A stretch of DNA of 46,071 nt. Origin: an uncultured Halieaceae bacterium. GTDB taxonomy: Bacteria > Pseudomonadota > Gammaproteobacteria > Pseudomonadales > Halieaceae. Both the position numbers and the translations under genes were made by a program. The notes beneath the pieces are model-generated. The model was given only the letters and a program-made list of their open reading frames with translations. It made no database searches and had not been told where the DNA came from. The DNA is taken from NCBI GenBank assembly GCA_913031575.1, contig CAJWEV010000014.1, forward strand, positions 1 to 46,071. The letters run 5' to 3'. Of this stretch, positions 6,583-21,287 are shown piece after piece. Every line of letters starts with the position of its first letter. Positions within the stretch are counted from its first letter, which is position 1.

Positions 6583-8589
6583 TTAACAAACAAGCGCTTC
6601 GATATCCACAAAATAGGACAGTGCCTCCGGATTCGCCAATGCGTCAATATTGTACACAGGCCTTCCGTGCAAGACTTCTCGCACAGCGAGCTCTACGATT
6701 TTACCGCTTAAGGTTCGAGGAATTTCTGGCACTTGAATAATCTTCGCAGGCACATGTCGTGGCGTCGCATTCTGGCGAATCGTCGATCGCACAGCTTGGG
6801 CTAGCTGCTCATCGAGTATCTCACCTTGCCGAAGCACCACAAACAATACAATTCGAACATCGTCCTCCCAGTCCTGCCCAACAACAATGCTTTCGACAAT
6901 GGCGTCTAGCTTCTCAACCTGCCGGTAAATCTCGGCAGTGCCAATGCGAACCCCACCTGGGTTAAGCACTGCATCGGAGCGCCCATGAATGATGGCACCG
7001 TCCTGGAGCGTGATCTCACCGTAATCCCCATGACACCAGACGTTATCGAACTGAGCGAAGTAAGCACGGTGGTACCTCCCGCCGTCATCGTCATTCCAAA
7101 AACCAATGGGCATGCTGGGAAACGACCGCTTGCACACCAATTCGCCTTTACCACTCTTGAGAGGTACACCGGTATCATCCCAAAACTCAACCGCCATACC
7201 GAGCGCGCGGCACTGGATTTGGCCTGTGTAAACCGGTCGCGTCGGACACCCACCCACAAAGCAGGAAATTATGTCGGTACCACCCGCAATAGAAGCGAGC
7301 AGTACGTCGCTCTTTATATCCCGATAAACGTACTCGAAGCTCTCGTGAGAGAGCGGAGAGCCTGTCGATAAAATGGTGTTGAGGCTCGATAGCTCATGTG
7401 ATTCGCGGGGTTTAAGCCCTGCCTTCTCGATACCCGAAATGAACTTCGCGCTGGTGCCGAACACGGTAATACGCTCCCGGTCAATCGCGTCGAGAAGTAC
7501 CTTTCCGTCATCAGCAAAGGGAGAGCCGTCATACAAAATTAGCGTTGCACCGCTGGCAAGACCCGAGACCAACCAGTTCCACATCATCCAGCCACAGGTG
7601 GTGAAGTAGAACAGCGTGTCGTCTGACCCAATATCACAGTGAAGCTGGTGTTCCTTCAGGTGCTGAATGAGTGTTCCGCCAGCACCATGCACAATGCACT
7701 TAGGCACGCCGGTCGTCCCCGATGAGTACATGATGTAAAGTGGGTGATCGAAAGGCAGCTGCTCAAACGCGATGTCGGTGACGCTCGCTTGCTCATGCTG
7801 CCAGGCTGAAAACAGTGCTGTGCCTTTCATACCTGCGATATTGGGGGCAGTCTCGACAATCTCGACGATCACCACGTGCTCGAGGCTATCTATCTCCTCG
7901 GCGATTTGACGCACCTTTTCAAGGGAATCGTGCGCCTTACCGTTGTAATAGTAGCCATCCGCCGCAAACAGAACCTTAGGTTTCACCTGTCCAAACCGAT
8001 CCATCACTCCCTGAAAGCCAAAGTCAGGAGAGCACGATGTCCATACGGCACCCAAGCTCGTCGCTGCCAACCCGGCGACGACGGTTTCAGAGACGTTGGG
8101 CATGAAACCTGCCACTCGATCACCCGGCTCAATACCGCGCGCTTTCAGAGCAGCAGCAATGGCAGCCACTTGTGCATAAAGCTCGTCGAAAGTGGTCTCT
8201 TTACGCCTGCCATTTTCGAGCAGTGACACAAGGGCTGTCGCATCACCGCGACGTCTTAACAGGTTCTCAGCAAAATTCAGACGGGCGTCAGGAAACCATA
8301 ACGCGCCGGGCATTTTGTCGGCATCGCGGACCACGACATCGCTTGGCTCGCTTGCAATGACCTCACTGTAGTCCCAAATACATTGCCAGAAGTCATCAGT
8401 AGCCGTTATCGACCAGTGATGTAGGGCTTCGTAGGTCGATACATCAACCTCGGGAAATCGCTCTTTAACGAAAGCACCAAATGCTGTCAGCGCAGAACGA
8501 GCAACGCGATCTTGGCTCGGACACCACAGCGGGGGTGGGCTCTCGGTTACGCCACCCTCGCTAGGAGCATCCAGCGAACTATCGGTCAT
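6583..8589 (-). CDS. aacS: acetoacetyl-CoA synthetase (acetoacetate-CoA ligase)
   Basis: This 668-residue ANL-superfamily enzyme activates acetoacetate with ATP and CoA to acetoacetyl-CoA. The AMP-binding P-loop YSSGTTGVPKCIVHG, the A5-type region GCPTRPVYTGQIQ, the GDYGEI motif and the C-terminal PRTLSGKIVELAV lysine motif are present. The N-terminal W.PS.....S.L..F and HHWSITATDDFWQ segments are typical of AacS rather than acetyl-CoA synthetase. Its ATG overlaps the carnitine dehydrogenase stop in an ATGA, so translation is coupled. In context it would recover the acetoacetate released by the BKACE enzyme, letting a thiolase encoded elsewhere make two acetyl-CoA. Confidence 0.93.
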   Translation of the reverse strand: MTDSSLDAPSEGGVTESPPPLWCPSQDRVARSALTAFGAFVKERFPEVDVSTYEALHHWSITATDDFWQCIWDYSEVIASEPSDVVVRDADKMPGALWFPDARLNFAENLLRRRGDATALVSLLENGRRKETTFDELYAQVAAIAAALKARGIEPGDRVAGFMPNVSETVVAGLAATSLGAVWTSCSPDFGFQGVMDRFGQVKPKVLFAADGYYYNGKAHDSLEKVRQIAEEIDSLEHVVIVEIVETAPNIAGMKGTALFSAWQHEQASVTDIAFEQLPFDHPLYIMYSSGTTGVPKCIVHGAGGTLIQHLKEHQLHCDIGSDDTLFYFTTCGWMMWNWLVSGLASGATLILYDGSPFADDGKVLLDAIDRERITVFGTSAKFISGIEKAGLKPRESHELSSLNTILSTGSPLSHESFEYVYRDIKSDVLLASIAGGTDIISCFVGGCPTRPVYTGQIQCRALGMAVEFWDDTGVPLKSGKGELVCKRSFPSMPIGFWNDDDGGRYHRAYFAQFDNVWCHGDYGEITLQDGAIIHGRSDAVLNPGGVRIGTAEIYRQVEKLDAIVESIVVGQDWEDDVRIVLFVVLRQGEILDEQLAQAVRSTIRQNATPRHVPAKIIQVPEIPRTLSGKIVELAVREVLHGRPVYNIDALANPEALSYFVDIEALVC

Positions 8590-9572
8590 CCGTTTGCCTG
8601 TTGGCGTCGATTGACCTCGTTGAGAAACGCGCCAGCGGCCGCGTCTTCGGCCCGCAGTGCTTTAAGCAATGCAACAAGATTGCGGTCGCGCTCGTTTTCG
8701 AGCTGCGTGACGGTTCGACCCGCTGCTTGCTCGTCTGACTGCTCAACAATGCGGTCAATCAGCGCCTCATCAAGGTCGGGCACATCCATGAGCTTGGTCC
8801 ATGGCCATTCAAGACAGGGGCCAAACTGCTCAAGAAAATGTTTCATACCGGCTTGGCCACCCGCCACGCGATAGGTTTCAAAGAGCCCCTTTTGTGCCCA
8901 GCGCAGACCAAAGCTATGCGTGATGATGTCGTCGATCTGACCGGTCGTTGCCACGCCATCCTTGATGAGCCACAGCGCCTCACGCCAAAGCGCCTCTAAC
9001 AAGCGATCGCCGACATGCGCTGGCACCTCGGCACCCAATACCACCGGCTTCATATAGACCGACTCAAGGTAATCACTCGCACGTTGCGTGACCTCAGCGG
9101 GCACCATAGGCGACGCTACCACCTCTACCAGAGGCAATAGATAAACCGGATTGTAGGGATGCGACACAATGATTTGCGGGGGCCGAATGGCACCTGCCTG
9201 AAGCTCACTCGGCATGAAGCCCGATGTCGAAGAAGCAATAATCGCATGGGCATCACAAGACTCTTGAATAGACTTCAGAACAGCGTGTTTTACCTCGATA
9301 CGCTCCGGTGTCGATTCCTGAATATAGACCGCCCCTACAACCGCATCCGCCGTCGATGTCGCGAGGTACAGGCTACCTTCCTTGGGCACAACATCGCAGA
9401 GCGCGGGCATTGCCTCGCGTCCACGCTCTATGACTGCATGCAGTATGTGCTCCGCATCGGGACTGGGATCAAAGAAGCGAACATCCCAGCCGTTTAGTAA
9501 AAACCGCGTCGCCCAACCTGAGCCAATCACACCACCGCCGATGATGGCGGCAGTTCGTCGCTTAACGGGCAT
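8586..9572 (-). CDS. L-carnitine 3-dehydrogenase
   Basis: This 328-residue member of the 3-hydroxyacyl-CoA dehydrogenase superfamily is expected to oxidise L-carnitine to 3-dehydrocarnitine with NAD+. The Rossmann motif GGGVIGSG is at 12-19, Asp35 ends the second strand (NAD preference), SSTSGF is at 114-119, and the catalytic His138 lies in SHPYNPVYLLPLVEVV. The NPVYLLPLVEVV segment and the absence of CoA-binding features fit stand-alone carnitine dehydrogenases (cdhA-type of Pseudomonas). The start overlaps the upstream BKACE stop (TAATG) and the end overlaps aacS (ATGA). The BKACE neighbour strongly supports the carnitine assignment over a generic hydroxyacyl-CoA dehydrogenase. Confidence 0.9.
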   Translation of the reverse strand: MPVKRRTAAIIGGGVIGSGWATRFLLNGWDVRFFDPSPDAEHILHAVIERGREAMPALCDVVPKEGSLYLATSTADAVVGAVYIQESTPERIEVKHAVLKSIQESCDAHAIIASSTSGFMPSELQAGAIRPPQIIVSHPYNPVYLLPLVEVVASPMVPAEVTQRASDYLESVYMKPVVLGAEVPAHVGDRLLEALWREALWLIKDGVATTGQIDDIITHSFGLRWAQKGLFETYRVAGGQAGMKHFLEQFGPCLEWPWTKLMDVPDLDEALIDRIVEQSDEQAAGRTVTQLENERDRNLVALLKALRAEDAAAGAFLNEVNRRQQANG

Positions 9573-10483
9573 TACAACGGATCTCTTTTAACCAAATTCA
9601 GTTCGGCACGCACTTCCTCGGGGGTCATAATCTCTACTCCCATGGCCGTAATAATGCCCGATGCTTTCTCAACCAGCTCCGCATTACTCGCGAGACGTCC
9701 GCGCTCTAACCAGAGATTATCCTCAAGGCCGACACGGACATTGCCGCCCGATAGAACGGCTGCTGCGACAAAGGGCATCTGGTTTTTTCCGATACTAAAG
9801 GCCGAGTGAACCCAGTCACTGGGTACGTTATTCACCATGGCCATGAAAGTATTCATGTCATCGGGTGCCCCCCAAGGTATACCCATACAAAGCTGGACCA
9901 TGACAGGATCGTTAATGACACCCTCTTCGACCAACTGTTTGGCAAACCACAGGTGCCCCGTGTCGAACGCTTCGATCTCAATTTGAATGCCGAGGTCGGT
10001 CATACGCTGCGCCATGTCGCGCAACATGCCAGGTGTATTGGTCATCACGTAGTCGGCTTCGGCGAAGTTCATGGTCCCGCAGTCGAGTGTCGCAATCTCG
10101 GGCCGGCAGACTTCAAGGTGCTCGACACGCTCAGCCGCTGACACCATGTCCGTGCCCGCTTCCTGGAGGGGCAACGGTGCCTCGGGCGGGCCGAAGACAA
10201 TGTCTCCACCCATGCCCGCTGTCAGATTTACCACGACGTCGGTATCGGAAGCGCGAATGCGCTCAACAACTTCTTTATACAAATGAACGTCGCGTGCCGG
10301 CGCGCCCGTTTCAGGGTCGCGCACGTGAGAGTGAACAACCGCAGCGCCCGCCTTTGCCGCCTCGATGGCGTCACTGGCTATTTGCTCGGGACTACGCGGC
10401 ACCTTTTGACTTCGATCTTGTGAAGATCCAGAGCCTGTCAGTGCAGCGGTGATAAAAACTTTTTTACGCATGGCTAGTGGCAT
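9572..10483 (-). CDS. BKACE-family (DUF849) 3-dehydrocarnitine cleavage enzyme
   Basis: BKACE enzymes are Zn-dependent and condense a beta-keto acid with acetyl-CoA, releasing acetoacetate and a new CoA ester. With 3-dehydrocarnitine the products are acetoacetate and betainyl-CoA. The 303-residue protein shows the family hallmarks: ITAALTGS near the N-terminus, zinc ligands His51 and His53 in VVHSHVRDP, a central NLTAGMGG, and GLEDNLWLERG near the C-terminus. The Glu following TGA in the founding Kce enzyme is not obvious here, a difference that may relate to the cationic substrate. The downstream carnitine dehydrogenase and acetoacetyl-CoA synthetase fix the likely role. ATG 10483 and the in-frame ATG 10471 (MRKKVFI) are both possible starts; AGGGAAA precedes the first. 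Confidence 0.88.
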   Translation of the reverse strand: MPLAMRKKVFITAALTGSGSSQDRSQKVPRSPEQIASDAIEAAKAGAAVVHSHVRDPETGAPARDVHLYKEVVERIRASDTDVVVNLTAGMGGDIVFGPPEAPLPLQEAGTDMVSAAERVEHLEVCRPEIATLDCGTMNFAEADYVMTNTPGMLRDMAQRMTDLGIQIEIEAFDTGHLWFAKQLVEEGVINDPVMVQLCMGIPWGAPDDMNTFMAMVNNVPSDWVHSAFSIGKNQMPFVAAAVLSGGNVRVGLEDNLWLERGRLASNAELVEKASGIITAMGVEIMTPEEVRAELNLVKRDPL

Positions 10484-10582
10484 GGTCGGTTTCCCTGTTG
10501 TGTCGCTCTCGTTGTCGTTATTTTTTGTTTCTACTTACTAGTGTCGGCTTTTGTTTCTGCGCCTACTCAATAGACGCGCTAC

Positions 10583-11788
10583 TCAGAGACCTTTCGATCG
10601 CGCGGCCCTGTTCAAAGCTCGAGCCCGAGACATGATCTCGTCGCGATCAATGTAAACACCTTGTAAGTGTCGCTTACCTGACCCCGTAAACGCATCCCGC
10701 CCATGGAGTACACGGCGATTATCAAAGCACATGATGTCACCGGCGATCAGGCGGAACTTCAATTCAAACTCTGGTTGATCGGCCATGCGGTGAAATAGTC
10801 GTAGCGCATCATACGAGCGGCTCACGTCTTCATTGGCCATCGCCGGAAAGGCACGGACCGGATAAAAGGCTCGAATAGTGGGCGTATCGCAGCCAGGTAA
10901 ATAATCTATGATGGGCGCGGACCATCGGTGATCGATGCCGGGGCCGCGGTTGAAGAAAATCCAATGCCGTGTAGACAGAAGCTCAAACGCTTCCGGGTGG
11001 TCGCGCTCGAGCGCCTCGACAAGTGCGGCCCCATCGGTCAATGTAGATTCGCCGCCATCGGCCTCGTTAATCAGGCAATGCAGGAATTGGAATCCCGGGG
11101 GGACCTCTCGTGTGGGCAAATCGGAATGAGGCCCCAGCCGCAACCCCGTGTTCGCGGTGGAATTTGTCTTCGCATCGCCGGCGAGCTCAACGTCTGCCTT
11201 CACATCCCACAACATACCGAAATTACTGTCACGCACCGGGCCAATCCGCTCTGCGAGTTTGAGCAGGTAGGCCTCATGCGTTGGAGAGTTCTCCAATACA
11301 CAGGCGCCATAAACGAGTAAGTTATTGAGCAGTGTCAGGATAACGTCATCGTTTTCAAGCGCCATACTGCCATCCACCCGCGGCACCTCACCGATAGAGT
11401 CAGTTGTCCACGAAATCACCTCAGGAAGCCAACTACTGGGCCGGTGATTATTATCGGCCACATGGCGCAACCAACCTGCGTGATAGATAGAGCGTTGGCC
11501 ATCATTGGCCCACTCAACAATGAGATCACCGGCGTCATCTACTACGGCTGATCTCACTTCAATGTCGTCAGTGAGTGCCGCAGGATCTAGAATGCCCTCA
11601 CGGGTTGCCAAGTCGATACCCCCCTGACCCATCGCGTTCTCGCGCAGCCAGAATCGATGGCAGGCCAGCTTCGCATCATCACACCAGCGGATATGGACAA
11701 AATCACCCTCGGTGACTGCAGCGGCTAGTGGGCTAGGTTCGTAGTGATAGAAGTCGGGGGCTAGTGCCTGCGAGACTGGAGTGTTCAT
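10583..11788 (-). CDS. gamma-butyrobetaine dioxygenase-like Fe(II)/2-oxoglutarate oxygenase
   Basis: This 401-residue protein has the two-domain layout of gamma-butyrobetaine hydroxylase (BBOX): an N-terminal DUF971-like domain (about 25-115) and a TauD/TfdA catalytic domain. BBOX hydroxylates gamma-butyrobetaine to L-carnitine. The iron triad is His221, Asp223 (GPHSD) and His362 (RRVLHGRD), with Arg373 placed to bind 2-oxoglutarate. Phe190 and Trp194 align with two substrate-cage aromatics. The N-terminal WLRENAMGQGG replaces the WLRDNCPCSDC of the human enzyme, so the zinc ligands are absent (see findings). GGAGG lies ten bases before the ATG. It heads the carnitine operon, 99 bases before the BKACE gene. 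A different trimethylammonium substrate remains possible. Confidence 0.8.
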   Translation of the reverse strand: MNTPVSQALAPDFYHYEPSPLAAAVTEGDFVHIRWCDDAKLACHRFWLRENAMGQGGIDLATREGILDPAALTDDIEVRSAVVDDAGDLIVEWANDGQRSIYHAGWLRHVADNNHRPSSWLPEVISWTTDSIGEVPRVDGSMALENDDVILTLLNNLLVYGACVLENSPTHEAYLLKLAERIGPVRDSNFGMLWDVKADVELAGDAKTNSTANTGLRLGPHSDLPTREVPPGFQFLHCLINEADGGESTLTDGAALVEALERDHPEAFELLSTRHWIFFNRGPGIDHRWSAPIIDYLPGCDTPTIRAFYPVRAFPAMANEDVSRSYDALRLFHRMADQPEFELKFRLIAGDIMCFDNRRVLHGRDAFTGSGKRHLQGVYIDRDEIMSRARALNRAARSKGL

Positions 11789-12475: not shown

Positions 12476-13783
12476 ATGAGCAGCGTTCGATCTATATTTT
12501 CTTTGTTGTTGACCACAGCATTCTTGCTGACGGGTCACGGCATACACATGACCTTTTTGCCGCTCATGGCGAGCGATATAGGACTTTCGCAGACCGTGAT
12601 TGGTATCTCCGGGTCTGCGTATTTTGCCGGCTTCATTTCAGGTGCCATGGTGACACCGCATATTATTGCTAGGGTGGGGCATGTTCGCAGCTTCACCACG
12701 CTCATGGCCGTATTCCTGTGCTGCTTTCAAGTACTCCCAATGACCGACGCAGGCTGGATATGGATTGTTGCGCGCTTTTTGCTCGGTGCAGTGATGTGCG
12801 GTGCCTACACAGTCGTCGAGAGCTGGTTATCAGATCAAGCAGACCCGCAAAACCATGGACGGGTTCTCGGGATCTACACACTGGTTGTATTAGGTGCAAT
12901 GGCCGCTGGCCAGGCTATGTTGGGCCTTGCTTACGGTGACGCCGCAATAGTATTTGCCCTAATATCCATTCTCATTGGTTGCGCCATCATTCCCGTGAGT
13001 CTCACGAGCTCCTTGGCACCAGCGCCTGTCCCCGCGACGCGCATCGACTTTATGAAGCTATACCGACGCTCACACACCGCGTTCGCAGGCGCATTAGGTT
13101 CAGGTGTCATTATCGGTACTTTCTGGACCTTGGGTGCCGTGCACGTCGTAAGCGTTACAGGAAATGCCGACTTTGCACCTACATTTGTAGCCGTCAGCAT
13201 TCTGGGTGGTGCGTTAGTCCAATACCCTATTGGCATCGCGTCTGATCGAATCGATCGTCGCCATGTACTGACCTTACTTTGTGCCATGAGTAGCCTGACT
13301 GCTTTTTGCCTATCAAGCGCAACGGATACGACATCGCTCATTGTGGGTGCTGCTGCCTTTGGTGCCGCTAGCAACTCACTTTATGCAGTGTCATTGGCCA
13401 AGGCAGCCGATAACTCAGAGCGCGACGAATTCGTGATTATTGGCTCATCCGTGCTTCTACTGAACGCCTTAGGCGCTGCCATTGGTTCGTTTATCTTTGG
13501 GTGGGCCATGCGTTCGGCCCAAGGTGATATTCTCTTCACACTGATAGCGATCGCCTCTGCACTATTTGCTGCCTTCATCGCTATCCAACCAAAGGGAGCG
13601 ACAGCCGTTGCGACTGACGAGCAAAGCAGCTTTGTTCCTGCGACGTCAGCCTCGGCTCCGGCTGCTTTACAGCAAGATCCGCGTGCGGGGGAGATCGCTG
13701 AAGAAGACCGGCTGAAGCCTACAGACACAGTCTCTGCAACTGATGAATTAGGCAGCGAGATCGAATGCTCAACAGCCGGCTGA
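12476..13783 (+). CDS. MFS transporter (YcaD/CynX-like)
   Basis: A 435-residue major facilitator protein with about twelve membrane helices. Visible features include HGIHMTFLPLMASDIGLS in helix 1, the motif-A-like loop after helix 2 (TPHIIARVGHVRSF), VESWLSDQADPQNHGRVLGIYTL between helices 4 and 5 (typical of YcaD-type transporters), and the second-half motif YPIGIASDRIDRR. A hydrophilic cytoplasmic tail of about 60 residues, rich in Ala, Ser, Thr and acidic residues, follows the last helix. It is transcribed divergently from the carnitine operon, so uptake of carnitine, butyrobetaine or a related compound is a reasonable guess. Substrate cannot be read from sequence. Confidence 0.85.
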   Translation: MSSVRSIFSLLLTTAFLLTGHGIHMTFLPLMASDIGLSQTVIGISGSAYFAGFISGAMVTPHIIARVGHVRSFTTLMAVFLCCFQVLPMTDAGWIWIVARFLLGAVMCGAYTVVESWLSDQADPQNHGRVLGIYTLVVLGAMAAGQAMLGLAYGDAAIVFALISILIGCAIIPVSLTSSLAPAPVPATRIDFMKLYRRSHTAFAGALGSGVIIGTFWTLGAVHVVSVTGNADFAPTFVAVSILGGALVQYPIGIASDRIDRRHVLTLLCAMSSLTAFCLSSATDTTSLIVGAAAFGAASNSLYAVSLAKAADNSERDEFVIIGSSVLLLNALGAAIGSFIFGWAMRSAQGDILFTLIAIASALFAAFIAIQPKGATAVATDEQSSFVPATSASAPAALQQDPRAGEIAEEDRLKPTDTVSATDELGSEIECSTAG

Positions 13784-13896
13784 GGCTCGCTATTGAGCGC
13801 TGCACCTGTGGGCGCGGCAACGCTTATTTTTTTCTGGATGTTTTTGCCTAAACCCACTTATGCTGATGTCTCTGGTGGCAGTAGCGAGTGCGTTTC

Positions 13897-15186
13897 ATGG
13901 GCACTTCAACAATTCCCGTTCGGTGGCGCTTTTTCTCCGTCATCTTCATCCTGAGTTTTCTCTCCTACATGCTCCGGCAGCACTTTCCTGTCGCGGGCGA
14001 GTTCATGATGAAAGAGCTCGTCATCAGCGAACTACAGATGGGCTGGGTGTACGGGGCCTTTTTCTGGGGCTACCTCGTTTTTCAGATTCCAGGCGGCATA
14101 CTGGGTAAACGCTTCGGTCCGCGACTGACACTCCTCGTCGCTGGCGCTATATGGGTTCTTGCTTGCTTGCTATTCGCCATATTGCCCGGCAGTTTCGAGT
14201 CATCAGTCATAGGCACCGTTGGTATGCTAATTGCCATTCGCGTGGTCATGGGCGCAGCGCATGCACCCATATACCCGGTTCAAGCCGCGTCTGTGGAGCG
14301 ATGGTTCCCTGTCGGCCAGTGGGCCCTACCCAGTGCGGTCTCGAGCACTGGCTTGTCTCTGGGCGCTGCGGCGGCGGCTCCCATTTTCTCGATCGTTATT
14401 ATCAACTACGGCTGGCGCGCTTCATTTCTTGTCTTCGTACCAGTGGGACTGTTGTTCTTCTCAATTTGGTGGTGGTACGCGCGCGATAATCCCAGAGAAC
14501 ATCCAGCCATGTCCGAGGATGAGCTAGAAAAAATCGAAGCTAATCGCTCAGGTTTGACTCAAGATGTAGGCTATGCCGCCTGGCGCCAGCTGCTGGCTCA
14601 TCGAGAAACCTTGCTACTGGCGTCCGCCTATTTCACACACAACTTCGTCTTCTACTCCTTCGCCACCTGGTTCTTTCATTATCTGGTGAACGTACTCGGT
14701 TTCAGCATTATCGAGTCGGGTATGCTGGCCGCCGCTCCCTGGGTACTGGGTGCCGTAGCAGCGACAGTTGGAGGATGGGTTTGCGACACCTTGTGTCATC
14801 GCCTTGGACCCAAATTAGGTTGTCGTATCCCTGCGATGACCGGTCTTATCGGCACGGGCATCTTCCTCTACCTCGGCCTATACGCCTCATCACCCTACAT
14901 TGCTGTTGCCCTACTCTCACTCTGCTATGCCTGCACGCAATTCGCTGAGGGGTCCTTCTGGTCAGCCCAGATACACCTTGCAGGGCCCTATTCGGCACCC
15001 GCCTGTGGGCTGATGAATACGGGTGGTAGCGTTTCAGGCATCATCGTAGGCCCTCTCATGCCCTTTCTTGCCCTCAAGGTAGGCTGGGTGGCTGCGCTAA
15101 GCACAGGCACCATTGTCGCCTTCATAGGTGCTGCGCTGTGGATGTTCGTCCGCGTCGATAAGCCGTTCCAACCACGAGAGATTTAA
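13897..15186 (+). CDS. MFS transporter, anion:cation symporter (ACS)-like
   Basis: A 430-residue twelve-helix major facilitator protein of the ACS/DgoT type. Typical elements are WVYGAFFWGYLVFQIPGGILGKRFGPR after helix 2, RVVMGAAHAPIYPVQAASVERWFP at helix 4, and WRASFLVFVPVGLLFFSIWWWYARDNPREHP leading into the central loop. This family usually carries carboxylates with H+ or Na+. ATG 13897 is chosen; an in-frame GTG at 13888 is an alternative. It lies about 110 bases after the first MFS gene on the same strand. A dioxygenase pseudogene follows on the same strand, suggesting that an ancestral transporter-oxygenase pair has lost its enzyme. Confidence 0.85.
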   Translation: MGTSTIPVRWRFFSVIFILSFLSYMLRQHFPVAGEFMMKELVISELQMGWVYGAFFWGYLVFQIPGGILGKRFGPRLTLLVAGAIWVLACLLFAILPGSFESSVIGTVGMLIAIRVVMGAAHAPIYPVQAASVERWFPVGQWALPSAVSSTGLSLGAAAAAPIFSIVIINYGWRASFLVFVPVGLLFFSIWWWYARDNPREHPAMSEDELEKIEANRSGLTQDVGYAAWRQLLAHRETLLLASAYFTHNFVFYSFATWFFHYLVNVLGFSIIESGMLAAAPWVLGAVAATVGGWVCDTLCHRLGPKLGCRIPAMTGLIGTGIFLYLGLYASSPYIAVALLSLCYACTQFAEGSFWSAQIHLAGPYSAPACGLMNTGGSVSGIIVGPLMPFLALKVGWVAALSTGTIVAFIGAALWMFVRVDKPFQPREI

Positions 15187-15211
15187 GCACCAAAAATCCG
15201 CTAACTCAGCC

Positions 15212-15225
15212 CGCTTTTAAAAGCG
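15212..15225. repeat. 14-base perfect palindrome after the MFS gene
   Basis: CGCTTTTAAAAGCG is perfectly self-complementary, 25 bases after the second MFS stop. With no spacer it could only form a small hairpin. No T-run follows, so it is a poor terminator; it may be a protein site. Confidence 0.35.
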
Positions 15226-15305
15226 CCGCTGTCGCCTTCAGGTCTATTCTCACTCGGCGCATGACATGACCAGTGCGCAGATCAGACAAAGAGCCTAAGG
15301 CAAGT

Positions 15306-15354
15306 GACTATCGTCTCTTTTAGAGACGACTATCTTGGAAAGTAGTCGACTATC
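15306..15354. repeat. three GACTATC direct repeats with an embedded hairpin
   Basis: GACTATC occurs at 15306-15312, 15328-15334 and 15348-15354. TCGTCTC-TTTTA-GAGACGA (15311-15329) is a perfect seven-pair hairpin between the first two copies, and TAGTCGACTA (15343-15352) is a perfect palindrome. The cluster sits at the left edge of the recognisable dioxygenase remnant and may mark the deletion or insertion that truncated it. Confidence 0.5.
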
Positions 15355-15665
15355 CAGGCTATGAATGAGGGCTTCCATAGCAACAGTGTCTGGATACATG
15401 CGGTAATAGGGATTCATCCTATTACCTACGATAAGTACATCATGGTGAATCGCTCTTTCACTCAGGGCATCGCGGGAATGCAAAAGCCGGAGAGCGACTG
15501 TCTGCTCGAATATGCATACTTGCACATTGATTAACCGGAACATCAGGTGCGATTCCGCTGGCGAGAACATTCGGTGGGGAGCTGGGACAAACGGGTGACA
15601 CAACACCAGGCGCACGCCGACTACCAGTCAATTCTGATCGGCGCGCTGCTAGGGACACAGCTTAG
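15355..15665 (+). pseudogene. C-terminal remnant of a TauD/TfdA-family Fe(II)/2-oxoglutarate dioxygenase
   Basis: Reading from 15361 on the plus strand gives a TauD/TfdA C-terminal region: SNSVWIHAVIGIHPITYDKY corresponds to the family's H-P-V-V-R-T-H-P segment, IMVNRSFTQGIAGM to the FVNRGFT segment, then PESDCLLEYAYLHI. A TAA at 15532-15534 interrupts the frame. It continues as PEHQVRFRWREHSVGSWDKR and VTQHQAHADYQ, which includes the family's distal iron-ligand His (TQH). Just after DYQ (about 15627) the match shifts frame, where another frame reads NSDRRAAR. The N-terminal two thirds, including HxD, are missing. One stop, one frameshift and truncation make it a clear pseudogene. It ends beside the convergent Rieske gene. 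Confidence 0.8.
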
Positions 15666-16924
15666 GCGTGACTAGCTTTCTCGAGGCTATGTAGGTACCA
15701 ACAAACAAACTTCTGAAGCGTGGCTTCGAACTCGGGATGGTAAGGCCCAGGCTCAAAAAATCGCGAGTTCACACCCGCATTATTTCGAAGAATGATGTAC
15801 TCGTCTTCCTGTGTGGTGTGGTCCCAGAGCCAGACGACATCCTCGCGCTTGTAGTCTTTACCATCCTCGGCATCACCACGCACAAACCAGACCAGTTCAA
15901 CATCGGTCTCAGTAAGTGATCGTGGAAGGAATCGGTAAAGAACGCAGTGGTCCGGGTAGTTCAACATAAAGGTCAGCGGACCCATTTGATAATCACCTGC
16001 CCCACCGTCATAGTCTTTGATATTACCCATGAGCGGTGCTACCGGTTGCCCATCTCGGCTACCTGTAACATTCCCGTCAAATAGTCCATATCGCATGGTG
16101 TGGACACAAGCACCAAAGCCGTGTGCGTCTCGGTAAATCTTGGTGTATTGCTTGGACATGCCGGGCACCCCCGTCACCTCGTCGGAACGCTCGAGTAACG
16201 CCTCCACAATCGGCGCTACTTTTTCATGCAAATCTTTAAAAGTGTGTAGCTTGGCGTAAGCGCGGTGTGAGGTGGCGCAGTGATAGCACTCTAAATAGTT
16301 CTCAAGCACGAGTTTCCAGTTCGCACCGATCTTGTAGGTCTTACGATGAGCGACCTTCGCGTTCGCCAAATCATAGGCGCCGAGTGGCTCAGAAATATGT
16401 TCAAGTGGCCCCAGGAAATCAGCAGCGTTTGGGTCACAGTTAATGAATACTAGCCCCATGTACTCGACACAGCGGACCGGTTTTAGCCCGTGCGCGTCCG
16501 CATCAAAGTCAGGTATGACATGTGTTTCACGTGCAGCCTTGAGACTACCGTCCAAGTTGTAGACCCAGCCATGATATGGGCAAACAAAGGTGCGCTTGTT
16601 TCCGGTTGCGGCTTCGCACACTTGTGCGCCACGATGGCGGCAGATGTTGTGCATGGCTCGAATCTTCCCGTCATCACCACGGACCACAATGATAGAGTCC
16701 TCACCAATGTCTACCAGCTGATAATCGCCCTTTGCCGGAACTTCGCTGCTGTGCAGTGCATACAACCAGCTTTTAAAAACAAGGTGATCGAGTTCACGCT
16801 CGTACACCAGATGCGAACGATAGAAATAGGCATCCATTGCGTGCCGCGGACGCTCCCGCTCCGCAGCGAGTTTCTCGCGCATCCGCTGGAGGGAGTCGTC
16901 AACTTGTGTTGCAATGAGGTGCAT
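15662..16924 (-). CDS. Rieske non-haem iron oxygenase alpha subunit, glycine-betaine/quaternary-amine N-demethylase type
   Basis: Oxygenases of this group remove an N-methyl group from compounds such as glycine betaine, stachydrine or carnitine, releasing formaldehyde. The 420-residue protein has the Rieske [2Fe-2S] ligands Cys95/His97 and Cys115/His118 (CRH..CPYH). The mononuclear iron motif is ENYLECYHCATSH (208-220), with His215 and His220 as ligands and Asp374 as the likely carboxylate. Glu212 sits where ring-hydroxylating dioxygenases use a bridging Asp, as in quaternary-amine oxygenases. It is the last gene of a four-gene operon, four bases after the GcvT-like stop and without its own clear ribosome binding site. 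No ferredoxin or reductase partner is encoded in the window. Substrate is unproven. Confidence 0.85.
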   Translation of the reverse strand: MHLIATQVDDSLQRMREKLAAERERPRHAMDAYFYRSHLVYERELDHLVFKSWLYALHSSEVPAKGDYQLVDIGEDSIIVVRGDDGKIRAMHNICRHRGAQVCEAATGNKRTFVCPYHGWVYNLDGSLKAARETHVIPDFDADAHGLKPVRCVEYMGLVFINCDPNAADFLGPLEHISEPLGAYDLANAKVAHRKTYKIGANWKLVLENYLECYHCATSHRAYAKLHTFKDLHEKVAPIVEALLERSDEVTGVPGMSKQYTKIYRDAHGFGACVHTMRYGLFDGNVTGSRDGQPVAPLMGNIKDYDGGAGDYQMGPLTFMLNYPDHCVLYRFLPRSLTETDVELVWFVRGDAEDGKDYKREDVVWLWDHTTQEDEYIILRNNAGVNSRFFEPGPYHPEFEATLQKFVCWYLHSLEKASHA

Positions 16925-16928
16925 GAGG

Positions 16929-18113
16929 TTAGTGCGCAGGTGCCGGTGTCTGTCGTTTACGCGGCGGATTAAACAGTGGACCGTCGATGACTTTGCAAGG
17001 CGCCATCAATCGCGTCCATTGCAACTCTCGCTGATAGTAAATCTCAGCAACAAACTCATCCCCAACAGCCCCGTGCGGCATCTCAACCTGCGCAAAAGCG
17101 AGGTTTGACTTTGCGGTGGGGCACCACGCCGCAGAGGTGACAATACCGATTTGCTTACCGTTCTTGTAGATAAACGAATGCTCAGCGGGCTTGTTGCCCT
17201 CGACATCGAGCAGAACAAATCGATATCGCAGACCCTCTTCTCTCTGCTTCACAAGTGCGGCGCGGCCGTTGAACAGTGACTTATTAAAGTCGACCTGCCA
17301 GTCTAAGCCCATCTCTAGGGGCGTGCGGGTGCGTCCGGGGCGCACCGCAATTTCCGCAGGCACGAAATCGACATTAGCCTGCAGAAAACCTGCTTCAATC
17401 CGCGCCACGTGAAGTGCGTGCGAACCGATGGGTTTAATCAGGTAGTCACGACCCTTGTCGAACAGCTGATCCCACAGCGCGTTAGCTTTACTGGGGTCGA
17501 TCCAGACTTCATAGCCCAAATCACCGGTAAACCCAGTGCGGCTTACCATCATTTCGACGCCTTCGAAATCAAATCTAGCGATGCCAAAAGGCTTAAGCTC
17601 ATTTAAGCCCTCACAGCCAATCAAGGTCAAAATGGTGCAGGACACGGGGCCTTGAACGGCCAGCGCTGCGATGTCATCGGACTCGTTGTTGATCGTCACG
17701 TCAAAACCGGATGCGTTCCACTCAAGCCAATCATCAGCGCGCATGTACGAGCATAGACGGTAATCGTCCTCGGCCAAGTGGAAAATAGTTCCATCGTCCA
17801 TGAGCTCGCCTCCGTCATTACACCAGACCGCGTAACCCACCCGATCGACACCAATCTTGGTGACATCACGTGTGACTAAGCGATTGAGAAAAGCTTCCGC
17901 GTCGGGACCCAAGATGCGATATTTATTCATGGGGGAGAGATCGAGAACGCCCGCTGTGCTTCGAATGGCGAAGTACTCAAGCTCCATATCGAAGTAGGAG
18001 TTCGGCGTGGTATATCCCTGCCATAAGCCCCAATCGTTAAGCTCGCAGTACTGCTCTACCCGCGAGTGAAACGGCGTGGTCAGTAACATCGTTTTGCGTT
18101 CAGCAGCGCTCAT
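16929..18113 (-). CDS. GcvT-like tetrahydrofolate-dependent aminomethyl/methyl transferase
   Basis: A 394-residue single-module GcvT-family protein. Relatives include the glycine-cleavage T protein, the C-terminal modules of dimethylglycine and sarcosine oxidases, and the DMSP demethylase DmdA; all move a one-carbon unit to THF. Visible family features are the N-terminal DLSPMNKYRILGPDAEAFLNRLVTRDV, the SRTGFTGDLGYEVW folate-domain strand, ARIEAGFLQANVDF, and the C-terminal beta-barrel region. No FAD domain is fused, unlike dimethylglycine dehydrogenase, but two FAD oxidoreductases are encoded immediately upstream. Its start overlaps the stop of the upstream FAD gene (ATGA). It is not in a gcvTHP operon. 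The substrate is probably a methylated amine intermediate (inference). Confidence 0.82.
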   Translation of the reverse strand: MSAAERKTMLLTTPFHSRVEQYCELNDWGLWQGYTTPNSYFDMELEYFAIRSTAGVLDLSPMNKYRILGPDAEAFLNRLVTRDVTKIGVDRVGYAVWCNDGGELMDDGTIFHLAEDDYRLCSYMRADDWLEWNASGFDVTINNESDDIAALAVQGPVSCTILTLIGCEGLNELKPFGIARFDFEGVEMMVSRTGFTGDLGYEVWIDPSKANALWDQLFDKGRDYLIKPIGSHALHVARIEAGFLQANVDFVPAEIAVRPGRTRTPLEMGLDWQVDFNKSLFNGRAALVKQREEGLRYRFVLLDVEGNKPAEHSFIYKNGKQIGIVTSAAWCPTAKSNLAFAQVEMPHGAVGDEFVAEIYYQRELQWTRLMAPCKVIDGPLFNPPRKRQTPAPAH

Positions 18114-19684
18114 GATAAGACCCCCTGCTTGAGTATTTCCTCCGCCGCATTTTTTCCAGCGAGCCCCATGAGACTGCCTCCGGGGTGCGATCCAGCACCG
18201 CAGAGATAGAGCCCCACGACACTGCCCGTATACTGCGTCGATCCGGGGAAAGGCCGCATCATCAGAGCTTGATCAATGGAGAGCTCGCCATGGTGCCAGT
18301 TACCGCCTGTCACACCGTGCGACGCCTCGAAGTCCTCGGGCACACGCACTTCGCTAGCAATTATGAGTTCGCGAATCCCCGGGGCATACACCTCAAGCTG
18401 CGCCAATAACGACTGAAGCAACTGCTCGCGAGCACTTTCGTTGTTGTCCCAACCCGTCTTAAGCTCGTGGGGCACGTAATGTACCAGCGCGGTTAGAACG
18501 TGCTGACCCGCGGGTGCTAGTGTCGGGTCTTCAATGCTTGGAATACTGATATCGAAAACGTGCTGCGATGTCAGCTCCCCGTATTTAATGGGGTTCAAGC
18601 CGGCTTCCATGGCATCCATACACGGCGCAATAATCAAACGCTGGCTGTGATCATCAGGAGAGACACCGACAAAAGATGGCAGCCCCGACAAGGCCAAGTG
18701 CAACTTGCCGGTGCCAGAGCGGGTTCGATATTGCTCGACACGACGCGCTTGCCCCGCCTCGATATTGCGATAGCCCAACAAATCACGATAGGTCCTCGTG
18801 GGGTCAACACTCGAAACCACCGCTATCGCCTCAAGAGTATCACCCGAGCTCAATTCAACGCCCATTACGCGATCACCGGTTTTGATAATGCGAGTAACGG
18901 CCTCGCCCAACCGCACTTCGACGCCCTGTGTTTTTGCTGAACTCAGCAGTGCACCGCCAAGACTGCCCATGCCACCCATCACCTGACTAACGCCCCGATT
19001 ACCCAGCGCCTCTCCGACCATACGGTGTATATACGTAAACACCGTATTGGGAGAACGCGGTCCCATATTGGTCCCCGTTATTGCGTCGAGCGCGATCGCG
19101 GCTTTCAGCCCATCGTGCTCAAAGTGCTCGTTCATCACGTCGTAAATATTGATCAGCACCAGCCGCATCATGTCTCGCATGTTTCTTCGGCCCATCATCT
19201 TCAGACCGAGCCCCAGCGAAAGCAATGTCATGCGATCACCCCAATCTGCGTCGACCATTTTGGGCGCTCGGGTGCGATAGAGCTTGAGCATCAACTTGGC
19301 AAAGACTTGCATTTGCCTTCGAAACGCTTTGTAGGCCTTCTTATCGGCTGCGCTGATCCCGGCACCGCTGAGGCTATCGCCGTCGACGATTAAGTGATCA
19401 CCACTCGACTGAAGCGCGATCGTCCGTTTGGCCTCCCCTAACCGCAAACCGTGCATTTCGAGGCTAAGCTCTTTAACAATCTTCTCATCAAGTTGATGCA
19501 CCCACTGGGCACAGTCCGAGATGTGAAATCCGTTGGCAAAAGCCTTGGTACTAGCACAGCCACCCGCTTGGTTAAGGGCGTCAACTACCAATACTCTCTT
19601 TCCTGCCTTGGCGAGATAGCTCGAGGAAATAAGCCCGTTGTGTCCCGCCCCGATTACGATGGCATCGTACTTAGTCATCGGCAT
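18110..19684 (-). CDS. PYROXD2/phytoene-desaturase-like FAD oxidoreductase (copy 1)
   Basis: A 524-residue flavoprotein of the COG1233 group, which includes carotenoid desaturases and the poorly understood PYROXD2. The FAD-binding GxGxxG motif is VIGAGHNGL near residue 11 and the second strand ends in VVDALNQAGG, with Asp where most relatives have Glu. The C-terminal FAD motif is LYLCGAGSHPGGSLMGLAGKNAA. No carotenoid genes are nearby, so desaturation is unlikely. It overlaps copy 2 by 14 bases and the GcvT-like gene by 4, so translation is coupled. An amine or betaine-derived substrate is inferred from context only. ATG 19678 is an alternative start. Confidence 0.8.
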   Translation of the reverse strand: MPMTKYDAIVIGAGHNGLISSSYLAKAGKRVLVVDALNQAGGCASTKAFANGFHISDCAQWVHQLDEKIVKELSLEMHGLRLGEAKRTIALQSSGDHLIVDGDSLSGAGISAADKKAYKAFRRQMQVFAKLMLKLYRTRAPKMVDADWGDRMTLLSLGLGLKMMGRRNMRDMMRLVLINIYDVMNEHFEHDGLKAAIALDAITGTNMGPRSPNTVFTYIHRMVGEALGNRGVSQVMGGMGSLGGALLSSAKTQGVEVRLGEAVTRIIKTGDRVMGVELSSGDTLEAIAVVSSVDPTRTYRDLLGYRNIEAGQARRVEQYRTRSGTGKLHLALSGLPSFVGVSPDDHSQRLIIAPCMDAMEAGLNPIKYGELTSQHVFDISIPSIEDPTLAPAGQHVLTALVHYVPHELKTGWDNNESAREQLLQSLLAQLEVYAPGIRELIIASEVRVPEDFEASHGVTGGNWHHGELSIDQALMMRPFPGSTQYTGSVVGLYLCGAGSHPGGSLMGLAGKNAAEEILKQGVLS

Positions 19685-21287
19685 AGCTCCCTGGGACGGT
19701 ATTGGGTCGTTTTAAATCATAGAGAATCTCGCGCGCCGCGTTCGCGCCAGGCGCCGCCATCACACCGCCACCCGGGTGTGTGCCAGAGCTGCACATGTAC
19801 ATGCCTTTGATAGGCATCCGGTACTGCGCATAACCCGGGAAGGGACGATTAAATAGCAACTGATCGAAAGTCAGCTCACCCTGGAAAATATTACCTTCGG
19901 TGAGCCCAACTTCGGCCTCGATTTCACGCGGAGTGCGGGTCTCACAATGGAGAATCAGGTCGCGAAAATTCGGGCTGTATTTTGAAATTTGATCGACAAC
20001 TGACTTCTCAAACCCGTCCTTATCTTCGTCAGTCCAATCGCGACCCTCAACTTTGGGCGGCGCGTATTGAACGAAGACCGACATCATATGTTTGCCCGGA
20101 GGCGCCATAGTCGGATCCGTCAGGGAAGGGATCATCATGTCAAGGTACGGGTCTTTCGACCAGGTTCCCGCCTTCCAATCATCGTAAGCACGCTCCATAC
20201 GCTCGAGCGAGTCACTGAAGTGCAGATCGCCAGACATTAGGGGATTCTTGGGATCCAGACCGTCGAAGGTGGGTAGACCATCCAGCGCAATATTTAGCTT
20301 TCCTGAGGAGCCGCGAATTTTGAAGTTTTTGGCTTTCTGAACCACGTCCTTGGGGAGATCGCGCTCGTCGGTAATATCCAGCAAGGTCCGCTTGGGATCG
20401 AGGTTGGAGACAACAATATCAGCGTGATATTCATCACCGTTCTTAAGTGCCACACCCTTTGCGCGGCCACCCTTCACAATAATACGTTCCACGTCCGCAT
20501 CACATATGATATCGCCGCCGAATGACTGAAGTGATTTTGAAAGCGCATTGGCAATGGCACCCATGCCACCACGCGCGAAGCCCCAGGCCCCTACATTGCC
20601 GTCAACATCGCCCATGTAATGGTGAAGTAAGACGTAAGCTGTGCCTGGTGAGTACACACCCAGAGCTGTACCAATGATGCCACTACCTGCGTGCTGCGCC
20701 TTGATAACGTCCGTCTCAAAGTACTCGTTAAGGTAATCCCCTACGGAGGTCGTCCAAAACTTGATCGTATCCAGCAAACCCTCTTCACCCATATTGAGGA
20801 AGGGTTTTGCAAAATCCACGAGGTCTTTGAGGTCTCTTAATCTAAGCGATGTAGGATCGGGCGGCGTCTTTAGTAGGAAGGGCCGGATGAGTCGCGTCTG
20901 GCGGCTGGTGTCAGCCCTGTAGCGTTCGTAGGCATTGGCATCGCGCTTTGAGTGGCGCGATATCTCACGATATTTACGTCCGTAGTCGCTATAGCTCCCA
21001 AAGTGATCGCCGTTTTGCATGAAGGTGGCACCGCCACCAAATGGCACCACCTGCAGACCGTGACGAGGTAACTCAAGGTCTCGGGTAATTTCGGGACGCA
21101 ACAAGCTGGATACGTAGGAGCAATTGGAGTAATACCAACCCTTGTAGAGCTCCCGACTTACCGTCGCACCACCAATGTGGGGATTGCGCTCAAGCACGGC
21201 GACTTTCAACCCCGCCTTAGCGAGGTAAGCCCCATTGGTGAGCCCATTGTGACCGGCACCGACAACGATGGCGTCGTATTTATTCAC
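19671..21287 (-). CDS. PYROXD2-like FAD oxidoreductase (copy 2), first gene of the Rieske/GcvT operon
   Basis: A 538-residue paralogue of the next gene. The N-terminal FAD motif VVGAGHNGL ends with the canonical VLERNPHIGGATVSRE, followed by YSNCSYVSSLLRPEI. The C-terminal signature is MYMCSSGTHPGGGVMAAPGANAA. It is closest in pattern to PYROXD2-type proteins of unknown reaction. The start is a GTG at 21285-21287 preceded by GGCGGAGA, which fixes the start. Upstream lies a leader able to fold as a pseudoknot. Two adjacent, non-identical copies suggest either a heteromeric enzyme or two successive oxidations. Confidence 0.82.
   Translation of the reverse strand: MNKYDAIVVGAGHNGLTNGAYLAKAGLKVAVLERNPHIGGATVSRELYKGWYYSNCSYVSSLLRPEITRDLELPRHGLQVVPFGGGATFMQNGDHFGSYSDYGRKYREISRHSKRDANAYERYRADTSRQTRLIRPFLLKTPPDPTSLRLRDLKDLVDFAKPFLNMGEEGLLDTIKFWTTSVGDYLNEYFETDVIKAQHAGSGIIGTALGVYSPGTAYVLLHHYMGDVDGNVGAWGFARGGMGAIANALSKSLQSFGGDIICDADVERIIVKGGRAKGVALKNGDEYHADIVVSNLDPKRTLLDITDERDLPKDVVQKAKNFKIRGSSGKLNIALDGLPTFDGLDPKNPLMSGDLHFSDSLERMERAYDDWKAGTWSKDPYLDMMIPSLTDPTMAPPGKHMMSVFVQYAPPKVEGRDWTDEDKDGFEKSVVDQISKYSPNFRDLILHCETRTPREIEAEVGLTEGNIFQGELTFDQLLFNRPFPGYAQYRMPIKGMYMCSSGTHPGGGVMAAPGANAAREILYDLKRPNTVPGSYADD

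Follow-up and report, generated by a model that had tools for sequence, protein, structure and literature searches.

A conserved flavoprotein and GcvT-like gene unit with a frequent Rieske oxygenase partner: a candidate N-demethylation operon in an uncultured Halieaceae bacterium

Dimethylglycine dehydrogenase (DMGDH), dimethylglycine oxidase and heterotetrameric sarcosine oxidase couple the oxidation of an amine by flavin adenine dinucleotide (FAD) to a GcvT-type domain that serves tetrahydrofolate (THF). Stc2 and CntA belong to the Group V Rieske oxygenases, which are described as having a bridging Glu and, in some members, a Cys-X-X-Cys near the mononuclear iron (PMC10952381). Here we describe an operon of four minus-strand genes at 15662-21287 of a 46,071-nucleotide stretch, referred to as the window, from an uncultured Halieaceae bacterium (assembly GCA_913031575.1, contig CAJWEV010000014.1), encoding two flavoproteins (FADb and FADa), a stand-alone GcvT-like protein and a Rieske non-heme iron oxygenase. 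On balance, and with some reserve, we regard it as probable that this operon is an oxidative N-demethylation unit in which the Rieske protein, the FADb/FADa pair and a THF-coupled GcvT-like protein act on a methylated C4 amine or betaine. The features that lead to this reading are observed ones: the adjacency of the FADb, FADa and GcvT genes, the bridging Glu of the Rieske protein, a retained THF-site Asp, the fold matches of the flavoproteins and a recurrent gene context.

The locus resembles the DMGDH and sarcosine oxidase group in that its GcvT-like protein aligns with these enzymes in the PDB. It differs from them in that the FAD and THF parts are separate and the FAD pair is of the CrtI/amine-oxidase type rather than DAO/FAO_M; by Pfam, FADa and FADb lack an FAO_M domain, and there is no DAO, FAO_M and GCV_T fusion, the genes being separate. 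The original prediction knew of no pathway with this composition, and no description of a Rieske, FAD pair and GcvT combination was found in the open-access literature either (subscription papers lay outside the search). We provisionally regard the combination as undescribed. A homarine or trigonelline pathway was considered as a candidate; the open-access literature offered nothing comparable, and the available part of PMC9870897 makes no mention of homarine.

The FADb-FADa-GcvT core and its Rieske partner

The source genome, whose closest named matches are Halieaceae, comprises 2.14 Mb in 88 contigs and is 79% complete. In the list of open reading frames (ORFs), the operon is transcribed in the order FADb, FADa, GcvT-like, Rieske (Table 1). 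The tight packing on one strand noted earlier was reproduced to the base: FADb and FADa overlap by 14 bases, FADa and the GcvT-like gene by 4, and a 4-base gap precedes the Rieske gene.

Two sets of loci were gathered. With the window's GcvT-like protein as bait, 42 loci were recovered from Halieaceae, SAR92/Porticoccaceae, Woeseiaceae, Dasania and unassigned Gammaproteobacteria. FADb served as bait for 398 genomes from the phylum, of which 54 gave matches at 1e-90, for 385 genomes of another class (18 at 1e-150) and for plasmid records. The 31 resulting loci from outside the Gammaproteobacteria consist of 10 from the 398-genome search, 16 from the 385-genome search and five plasmids, the last being five of the seven records at 60% or above, with H2 and H3 left out. 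The plasmids are named as Alphaproteobacteria; the other 26 loci come from the same phylum and another class, presumably Alphaproteobacteria. Genes at these loci were counted as BLAST best hits at 1e-12. Many loci are from close relatives, as in SAR92, several contigs end early, and in each set the adjacency of the bait gene itself depends on how the loci were gathered, so that only that of the other genes counts as independent.

FADb was found at 40 of the 42 gammaproteobacterial loci when pieces of at least 75 amino acids (aa) are counted, and as a long ORF at 38. FADa adjoins it at all 40, as it does at 31/31 loci outside the class, and GcvT adjoins at 41/42 and 30/31 loci. The four loci with no long FADb ORF are L007, L008, L022 and L034; the first two were counted as holding FADb through their shorter pieces, and at L022 the contig starts in front of FADa. 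Outside the class, the single GcvT miss (L123) lies on a contig that ends before the gene. Among 29 control loci with FADb-like genes (approximately 34-41% identity), FADa adjoins at none and GcvT at one (L126). These controls represent 27 distinct genes (L055 and L084 are identical, as are L056 and L085); the first 19 are all the non-orthologous loci of the 398-genome FADb search, with about 1.5 kb on each side, and the other 10 were picked by hand. The linkage of FADb, FADa and GcvT thus exceeds chance and, because adjacency is near-constant at the orthologous loci and no control carries the trio, we define the core as the three-gene unit FADb-FADa-GcvT.

Rieske genes accompany this unit at 31/42 gammaproteobacterial and 12/31 other loci. 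Because the Rieske gene is absent from 11/42 and 19/31 loci, some of whose contigs end early, we leave it out of the core and regard it as a frequent but not universal partner. The original prediction would have been refuted had the four genes rarely been neighbours in other genomes; this is not so for the three-gene core and is only partly so for the Rieske gene. Single FADb-like genes adjoin a Rieske gene in 4 of the 19 short control loci (6 of 29 by a looser BLAST count). At L055 (the same as L084), L060, L067 and L070, from other proteobacteria, a lone FADb-like gene of 37-41% identity lies directly beside a Rieske gene.

Families, motifs and predicted folds of the four proteins

The Rieske protein has both the Rieske and the catalytic domain. 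Its nearest PDB sequences are 3n0q, 3vca (which we take to be the stachydrine demethylase Stc2), 4qup and 6y8j, and carnitine monooxygenase is among the best-aligned solved structures. The stretch ENYLECYHC contains the bridging Glu, E212, and the Cys-X-X-Cys, C213/C216, and E212 aligns with the bridging Glu of CntA at a constant offset of 20 in chain numbering. The earlier assignment to the bridging-Glu Rieske enzymes is borne out: E212 is invariant in 30/30 aligned rows (chosen from 25 collected sequences plus partner and control loci), including the partner Rieske proteins of the alphaproteobacterial plasmids. The Cys-X-X-Cys is absent from the NEGYH-type partners on those plasmids. By sequence alignment the protein thus has both Group V features, which it shares, together with overall homology, with GbcA, CntA and Stc2. 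It departs from the Group V systems in scoring below the GbcA cut-off, in that a GbcB/CntB-type reductase gene was found neither next to it nor elsewhere in the genome, at 79% completeness, and in sharing an operon with an FAD pair and a GcvT-like gene. GbcA (NF058607) is its best NCBIfam model, and we do not file it as GbcA because its 281.7 bits fall short of the cut-off of 670. Judged by motif and family, it would convert R-N+(CH3)3 to R-N(CH3)2 and formaldehyde.

The GcvT-like protein has as its nearest PDB entry the C-terminal half of trimethylamine N-oxide (TMAO) demethylase (9q59/9q5a), with the T-protein 1woo only slightly behind. That demethylase, Tdm, is its closest solved relative, but of the 793 residues of the Tdm chain only the C-terminal half is matched, and the Tdm model gives 257.9 bits against a cut-off of 1100. 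The gcvT model TIGR00528 is likewise not reached (170.7 bits, cut-off 235.85). Its placement in the GcvT family, as first proposed, is supported by residue D107, which aligns with D96 of TmGcvT and is at least 90% conserved in 29 aligned rows chosen from 66 collected; we take this residue to be the THF-site Asp. Dimethylsulfoniopropionate (DMSP)-type chemistry for the unit was rejected, the DmdA model (NF009133) giving 141.1 bits, far below its cut-off of 410. The combination of a GcvT-like protein with an acyl-CoA dehydrogenase and a CoA ligase resembles the logic of DmdABC. A cupin of the DMSP-lyase family (PF16867, above cut-off), the sole one seen, is encoded at the end of the Fuscovulum cluster (L102:26647-27498).

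FADa and FADb share 34.7% identity with each other, and the GxGxxG dinucleotide motif is present in each. No PYROXD2 model or sequence came up for the pair, no comparison aimed at that family having been made. CrtO and CrtI are their nearest NCBIfam models, and both proteins fall under both cut-offs: for CrtI (TIGR02734, cut-off 238.1) FADa scores 121.4 and FADb 113.2, and for CrtO (NF045689, cut-off 1000) 209.2 and 288.3. AlphaFold2 models (mean predicted local distance difference test, pLDDT, 85.6 for FADa and 86.1 for FADb) place a carotenoid desaturase first among Foldseek matches, with template modelling (TM) scores of 0.73 and 0.75, followed by the nicotine oxidoreductase NicA2, putrescine oxidase and monoamine oxidase (MAO); the matches of FADa include 4rep, CrtI, NicA2 and putrescine oxidase. 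The predicted fold is therefore that of CrtI/CrtO and the flavin amine oxidases, from which the pair differs in its low identity to the matched structures (approximately 13-20%), its scores below the CrtO and CrtI cut-offs, its pairing and its link to GcvT. FADb is 50-87% identical to the 26 other rows of its motif alignment, a chosen subset of 27 rows from 64 collected (28 of 67 for FADa). It is much more conserved than FADa: the window's FADb and FADa share mostly 77-82% and 48-53% identity, respectively, with distant gammaproteobacterial rows of the same kind. Two more FADb-like genes, facing each other a few kb apart, occur elsewhere in the window genome (contig C41, L075:4674-6275 and 10050-11636).

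In the scheme that we favour, FADb and FADa would jointly oxidise the N-methyl group of the resulting tertiary, and then secondary, N-methylamine to an iminium, and the GcvT-like protein would move the one-carbon unit to THF, as in DMGDH, to give 5,10-methylene-THF; family, linkage and the conserved Asp point to the latter step. Three separate subunits would then do the work of the single-chain DMGDH.

Gene neighbourhoods and the substrate

The fullest cluster, of the SAR92 type (for example L024), joins a PotF/G/H/I-type ATP-binding cassette (ABC) transporter, an acyl-CoA dehydrogenase and a BetI-type TetR regulator to FADb-FADa-GcvT, and continues with a nucleoside diphosphate (NDP)-forming CoA ligase, a PuuA-like ligase, a Rieske gene, a PuuB-like oxidase, a GATase, a class III aminotransferase and an agmatinase that scores over its model cut-off. 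Haliea-type versions have only part of this list. At gammaproteobacterial and other loci, respectively, the unit is accompanied by a class III aminotransferase in 21/42 and 14/31, a GSAM-like aminotransferase in 3/42 and 7/31, an NDP-forming CoA ligase in 21/42 and 3/31, an acyl-CoA dehydrogenase in 19/42 and 4/31 and a PuuA-like gene in 22/42 and 2/31. The figures for PotABC (20/42 and 18/31) and TetR (22/42 and 23/31) are loose, any related ABC gene or TetR being counted. On plasmids of Shinella, Rhizobium, Parasedimentitalea and Fuscovulum, the unit occurs with TetR, Pot-type ABC genes, an aminotransferase and at least one Rieske gene. The window genome itself has a second unit on contig C28 (L074:9145-13692, L130:6784-9635), in which FADa comes first, behind a molybdopterin oxidoreductase gene, and approximately 7 kb downstream of which lie PuuA-like (50.5%) and PuuB-like (54.5%) genes, partners seen also in the SAR92 cluster. 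From this context, the substrate is probably a methylated C4 amine or betaine, such as gamma-butyrobetaine, methylated gamma-aminobutyric acid or a methylated diamine, and the freed amine could pass to class III aminotransferases or a gamma-glutamyl pathway.

Another proposal, which we consider unlikely although it survives best among the alternatives, is that the unit acts on an N-methylated polyamine or diamine, which PotFGHI-type transporters would bring in and which would pass, as putrescine, into Puu or aminotransferase pathways. The SAR92-type clusters, which join a binding protein of the SpuE/PotF family (the L024 protein is a member), PuuA- and PuuB-like genes, GATase, aminotransferase and agmatinase to the unit, are in its favour. 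In all 17 aligned gammaproteobacterial binding proteins an aromatic box and two Asp are retained but the distal Glu is absent, its place being taken by Ser/Thr in 16 and by Asp in 1; we take these positions to be substrate-site residues. In addition, 7 of the 31 non-gammaproteobacterial loci add a flavoprotein of the cyclohexylamine, monoamine or putrescine oxidase type. On the other hand, the rhizobial binding protein L079 is without the two Asp, the PuuA-like protein scores 196 bits against a cut-off of 650, the window's own unit has no PotF-type transporter or aminotransferase adjoining it, and three settings with carnitine-type genes speak for betaines.

The first of these settings is shared by the window, L002 and L005, in which gamma-butyrobetaine dioxygenase (BBOX)-, carnitine 3-dehydrogenase (CDH)- and beta-keto acid cleavage enzyme (BKACE)-like genes lie approximately 4-6 kb from the unit, beyond divergent major facilitator superfamily (MFS) genes (Table 1). 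The second, L081, is a single locus that has the unit, two Rieske genes, a CDH of 650 bits (above the cut-off of 592), an acyl-CoA dehydrogenase, a CoA ligase, a CaiD-like hydratase (below cut-off) and an aldehyde dehydrogenase. The third, on a Shinella sumterensis plasmid (L126:5020-14158), is a run of a CaiD-like hydratase (below cut-off), a CoA ligase, a CDH-like gene (below cut-off), an FAD gene and a GcvT gene, ending after one other gene with a BKACE 62% identical to the window's; its lone FAD gene beside a different GcvT gene is a simpler relative of the unit. Genes of carnitine degradation by carnitine dehydrogenase and BKACE are thus found near the unit or this relative, and to our knowledge that pathway includes neither the Rieske/FAD/GcvT set nor its reaction.

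Table 1. Features of the operon and its neighbourhood in the window
Feature	Coordinates	Strand	Details
FADb, CrtI/amine-oxidase-fold flavoprotein	19671..21287	-	538 aa, GTG start; first operon gene; Pfam as FADa
FADa, CrtI/amine-oxidase-fold flavoprotein	18110..19684	-	524 aa; Pfam Amino_oxidase/NAD_binding_8/DAO-type FAD domains
Stand-alone GcvT-like protein	16929..18113	-	394 aa; Pfam GCV_T (188 bits) + GCV_T_C
Rieske non-heme iron oxygenase, Group V type	15662..16924	-	420 aa; Pfam Rieske + Ring_hydroxyl_A
MFS transporter (2A0114-like), neighbourhood	13888..15186	+	Pfam MFS_1; TIGR00893 best, below cut-off
MFS transporter, neighbourhood	12476..13783	+	Pfam MFS_1
BBOX-like, outside operon	10583..11788	-	TIGR02409 264.7 bits, below cut-off 414.75
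BKACE, neighbourhood	9572..10483	-	PF05853 328 bits
CDH-like, dehydrogenase part only, neighbourhood	8586..9572	-	PRK07531 477.5 bits, below cut-off 592
Acetoacetate-CoA ligase, neighbourhood	6583..8589	-	TIGR01217 921.7 bits, above cut-off 520.9

Upstream of FADb, on the same strand, a GH81-type glycosyl hydrolase gene with Ig-like domains by Pfam (21480-25079) ends 192 bases away. In the close relative L002, a TauD-type dioxygenase gene (L002:12464-13282) lies between the Rieske and MFS genes, where the window has only about 475 bases (15187-15661).

The carnitine-type genes also bear on the substrate first proposed, glycine betaine, which the Rieske protein would convert towards glycine with the FAD pair and GcvT replacing dimethylglycine and sarcosine dehydrogenases. 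Gamma-butyrobetaine or carnitine could be turned into glycine betaine by the products of the BBOX-, CDH- and BKACE-like genes close to the unit in the window, L002 and L005, and GbcA is the best model of the Rieske protein, but with a score well short of its cut-off. The omega-aminotransferases, PuuA/B-like genes and PotF-type transporters that are frequent at the unit would not be needed for this substrate. On contig C11 (L090:7199-16268), a DMGDH-like fusion of DAO, FAO_M and GCV_T lies beside MTTB, B12-binding, Pterin_bind and RACo genes, so that by domain content this Halieaceae-like bacterium has an MttB-type corrinoid set. By domain content alone, the set looks like the corrinoid glycine betaine route with MtgBCDE reported in PMC12478193. 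There is also a sarcosine-oxidase locus, in which an alpha-type protein is accompanied by a small GCV_T frame and by a gene that, on reading by eye, is soxB-like; further GCV_T frames are a 390-aa frame on C70, one more GcvT-like protein on C46 and that of the second unit. Because the genome holds the corrinoid set, the DMGDH-like fusion and the sarcosine-oxidase locus, glycine betaine is improbable as the main substrate and is weakened as the sole one. The idea that the stand-alone proteins replace the fused dimethylglycine and sarcosine enzymes is likewise not favoured, such enzymes being encoded elsewhere in the genome.

Electron supply and the standing of the N-demethylation reading

It is very unlikely that the flavoproteins instead feed electrons to the Rieske protein in place of a reductase, leaving GcvT only to mop up formaldehyde. 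Such a role would agree with the lone FADb-like genes beside Rieske genes in the short control loci and with the negative search for a dedicated reductase: none of GbcB/CntB type turned up beside the operon or in the window genome, at its 79% completeness, and the annotation of four plasmid stretches lists none either, the other clusters not having been scanned for reductases. However, many loci have the FAD pair and no Rieske gene, no ferredoxin-like domain was found in FADa or FADb by Pfam, and the genome, itself incomplete, has ferredoxin-type matches. It contains one FAD_binding_6 match (a 410-aa frame), two NAD_binding_1 matches (the same frame and one of 552 aa) and five Fer2 matches; from length and neighbours, we take the 410-aa frame to be NqrF and the 552-aa frame to be CysJ-like. 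In six related genomes, ten FAD_binding_6 matches occur in five; two of these have only a 413-aa frame of NqrF-like length, and three have extra frames (275-281, 382, 397, 409 and 665 aa). Rhizobium SL42 has a MocE-type ferredoxin and FAD oxidoreductase gene approximately 5 kb upstream of the unit.

We give almost no credence to the view that carotenoids, retinoids or lipids are what the flavoproteins act on and that the GcvT/Rieske neighbourhood has no pathway meaning, for although the best NCBIfam models and the best Foldseek match point that way, the CrtI and CrtO scores are far below their cut-offs, on which ground a carotenoid function was rejected, the linkage to GcvT is near-constant, and the annotation of the four plasmid stretches names no neighbour with a part in carotenoid biosynthesis.

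Several observations nevertheless weigh against the N-demethylation reading that we prefer. L034 is a true miss, with a partial GcvT, 10 kb of upstream sequence and no FAD gene, and the Rieske gene is missing from many loci. For both flavoproteins, a carotenoid desaturase is the top structural match. The genome, at 79% completeness, yielded no GbcB/CntB-type reductase to account for the supply of electrons to the Rieske protein. As for context, PuuA-like genes are scarce at the 31 loci outside the class, the SAR92 aminotransferase has no close relative in the window genome (best 35%, in a genome 79% complete), CDH is rare at the unit (2/42 gammaproteobacterial and 1/31 other loci), and the window's carnitine-type genes stand outside the operon with the MFS genes between, the BBOX- and CDH-like proteins falling below their cut-offs. 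Finally, we infer, rather than observe, that the four proteins meet in a complex, that the reaction is coupled to THF, in which direction it runs and what its substrate is.

A bolder form of this reading can be put forward tentatively. FADb-FADa-GcvT could represent a new class of amine demethylases coupled to THF, with three subunits and with the CrtI/amine-oxidase fold in place of the DAO fold. With a Group V Rieske protein it would form an undescribed catabolic route for methylated C4 amines in at least two classes of Proteobacteria, the flavoproteins possibly also feeding electrons to the Rieske protein, which apparently has no reductase. The methylated C4 amines concerned may be betaines of the gamma-butyrobetaine type or N-methylated polyamines, for example those of algal silica.

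In the sea and in soil, large pools of nitrogen and methyl carbon reside in N-methylated osmolytes and amines. If the N-demethylation reading is true, the genes described here would supply a missing enzyme set for those pools in marine Halieaceae, SAR92, Woeseiaceae and Rhodobacterales, and in rhizobia. If the kinship with PYROXD2 by which the original prediction labelled the flavoproteins also holds, the unit would offer a testable reaction type for that flavoprotein family.

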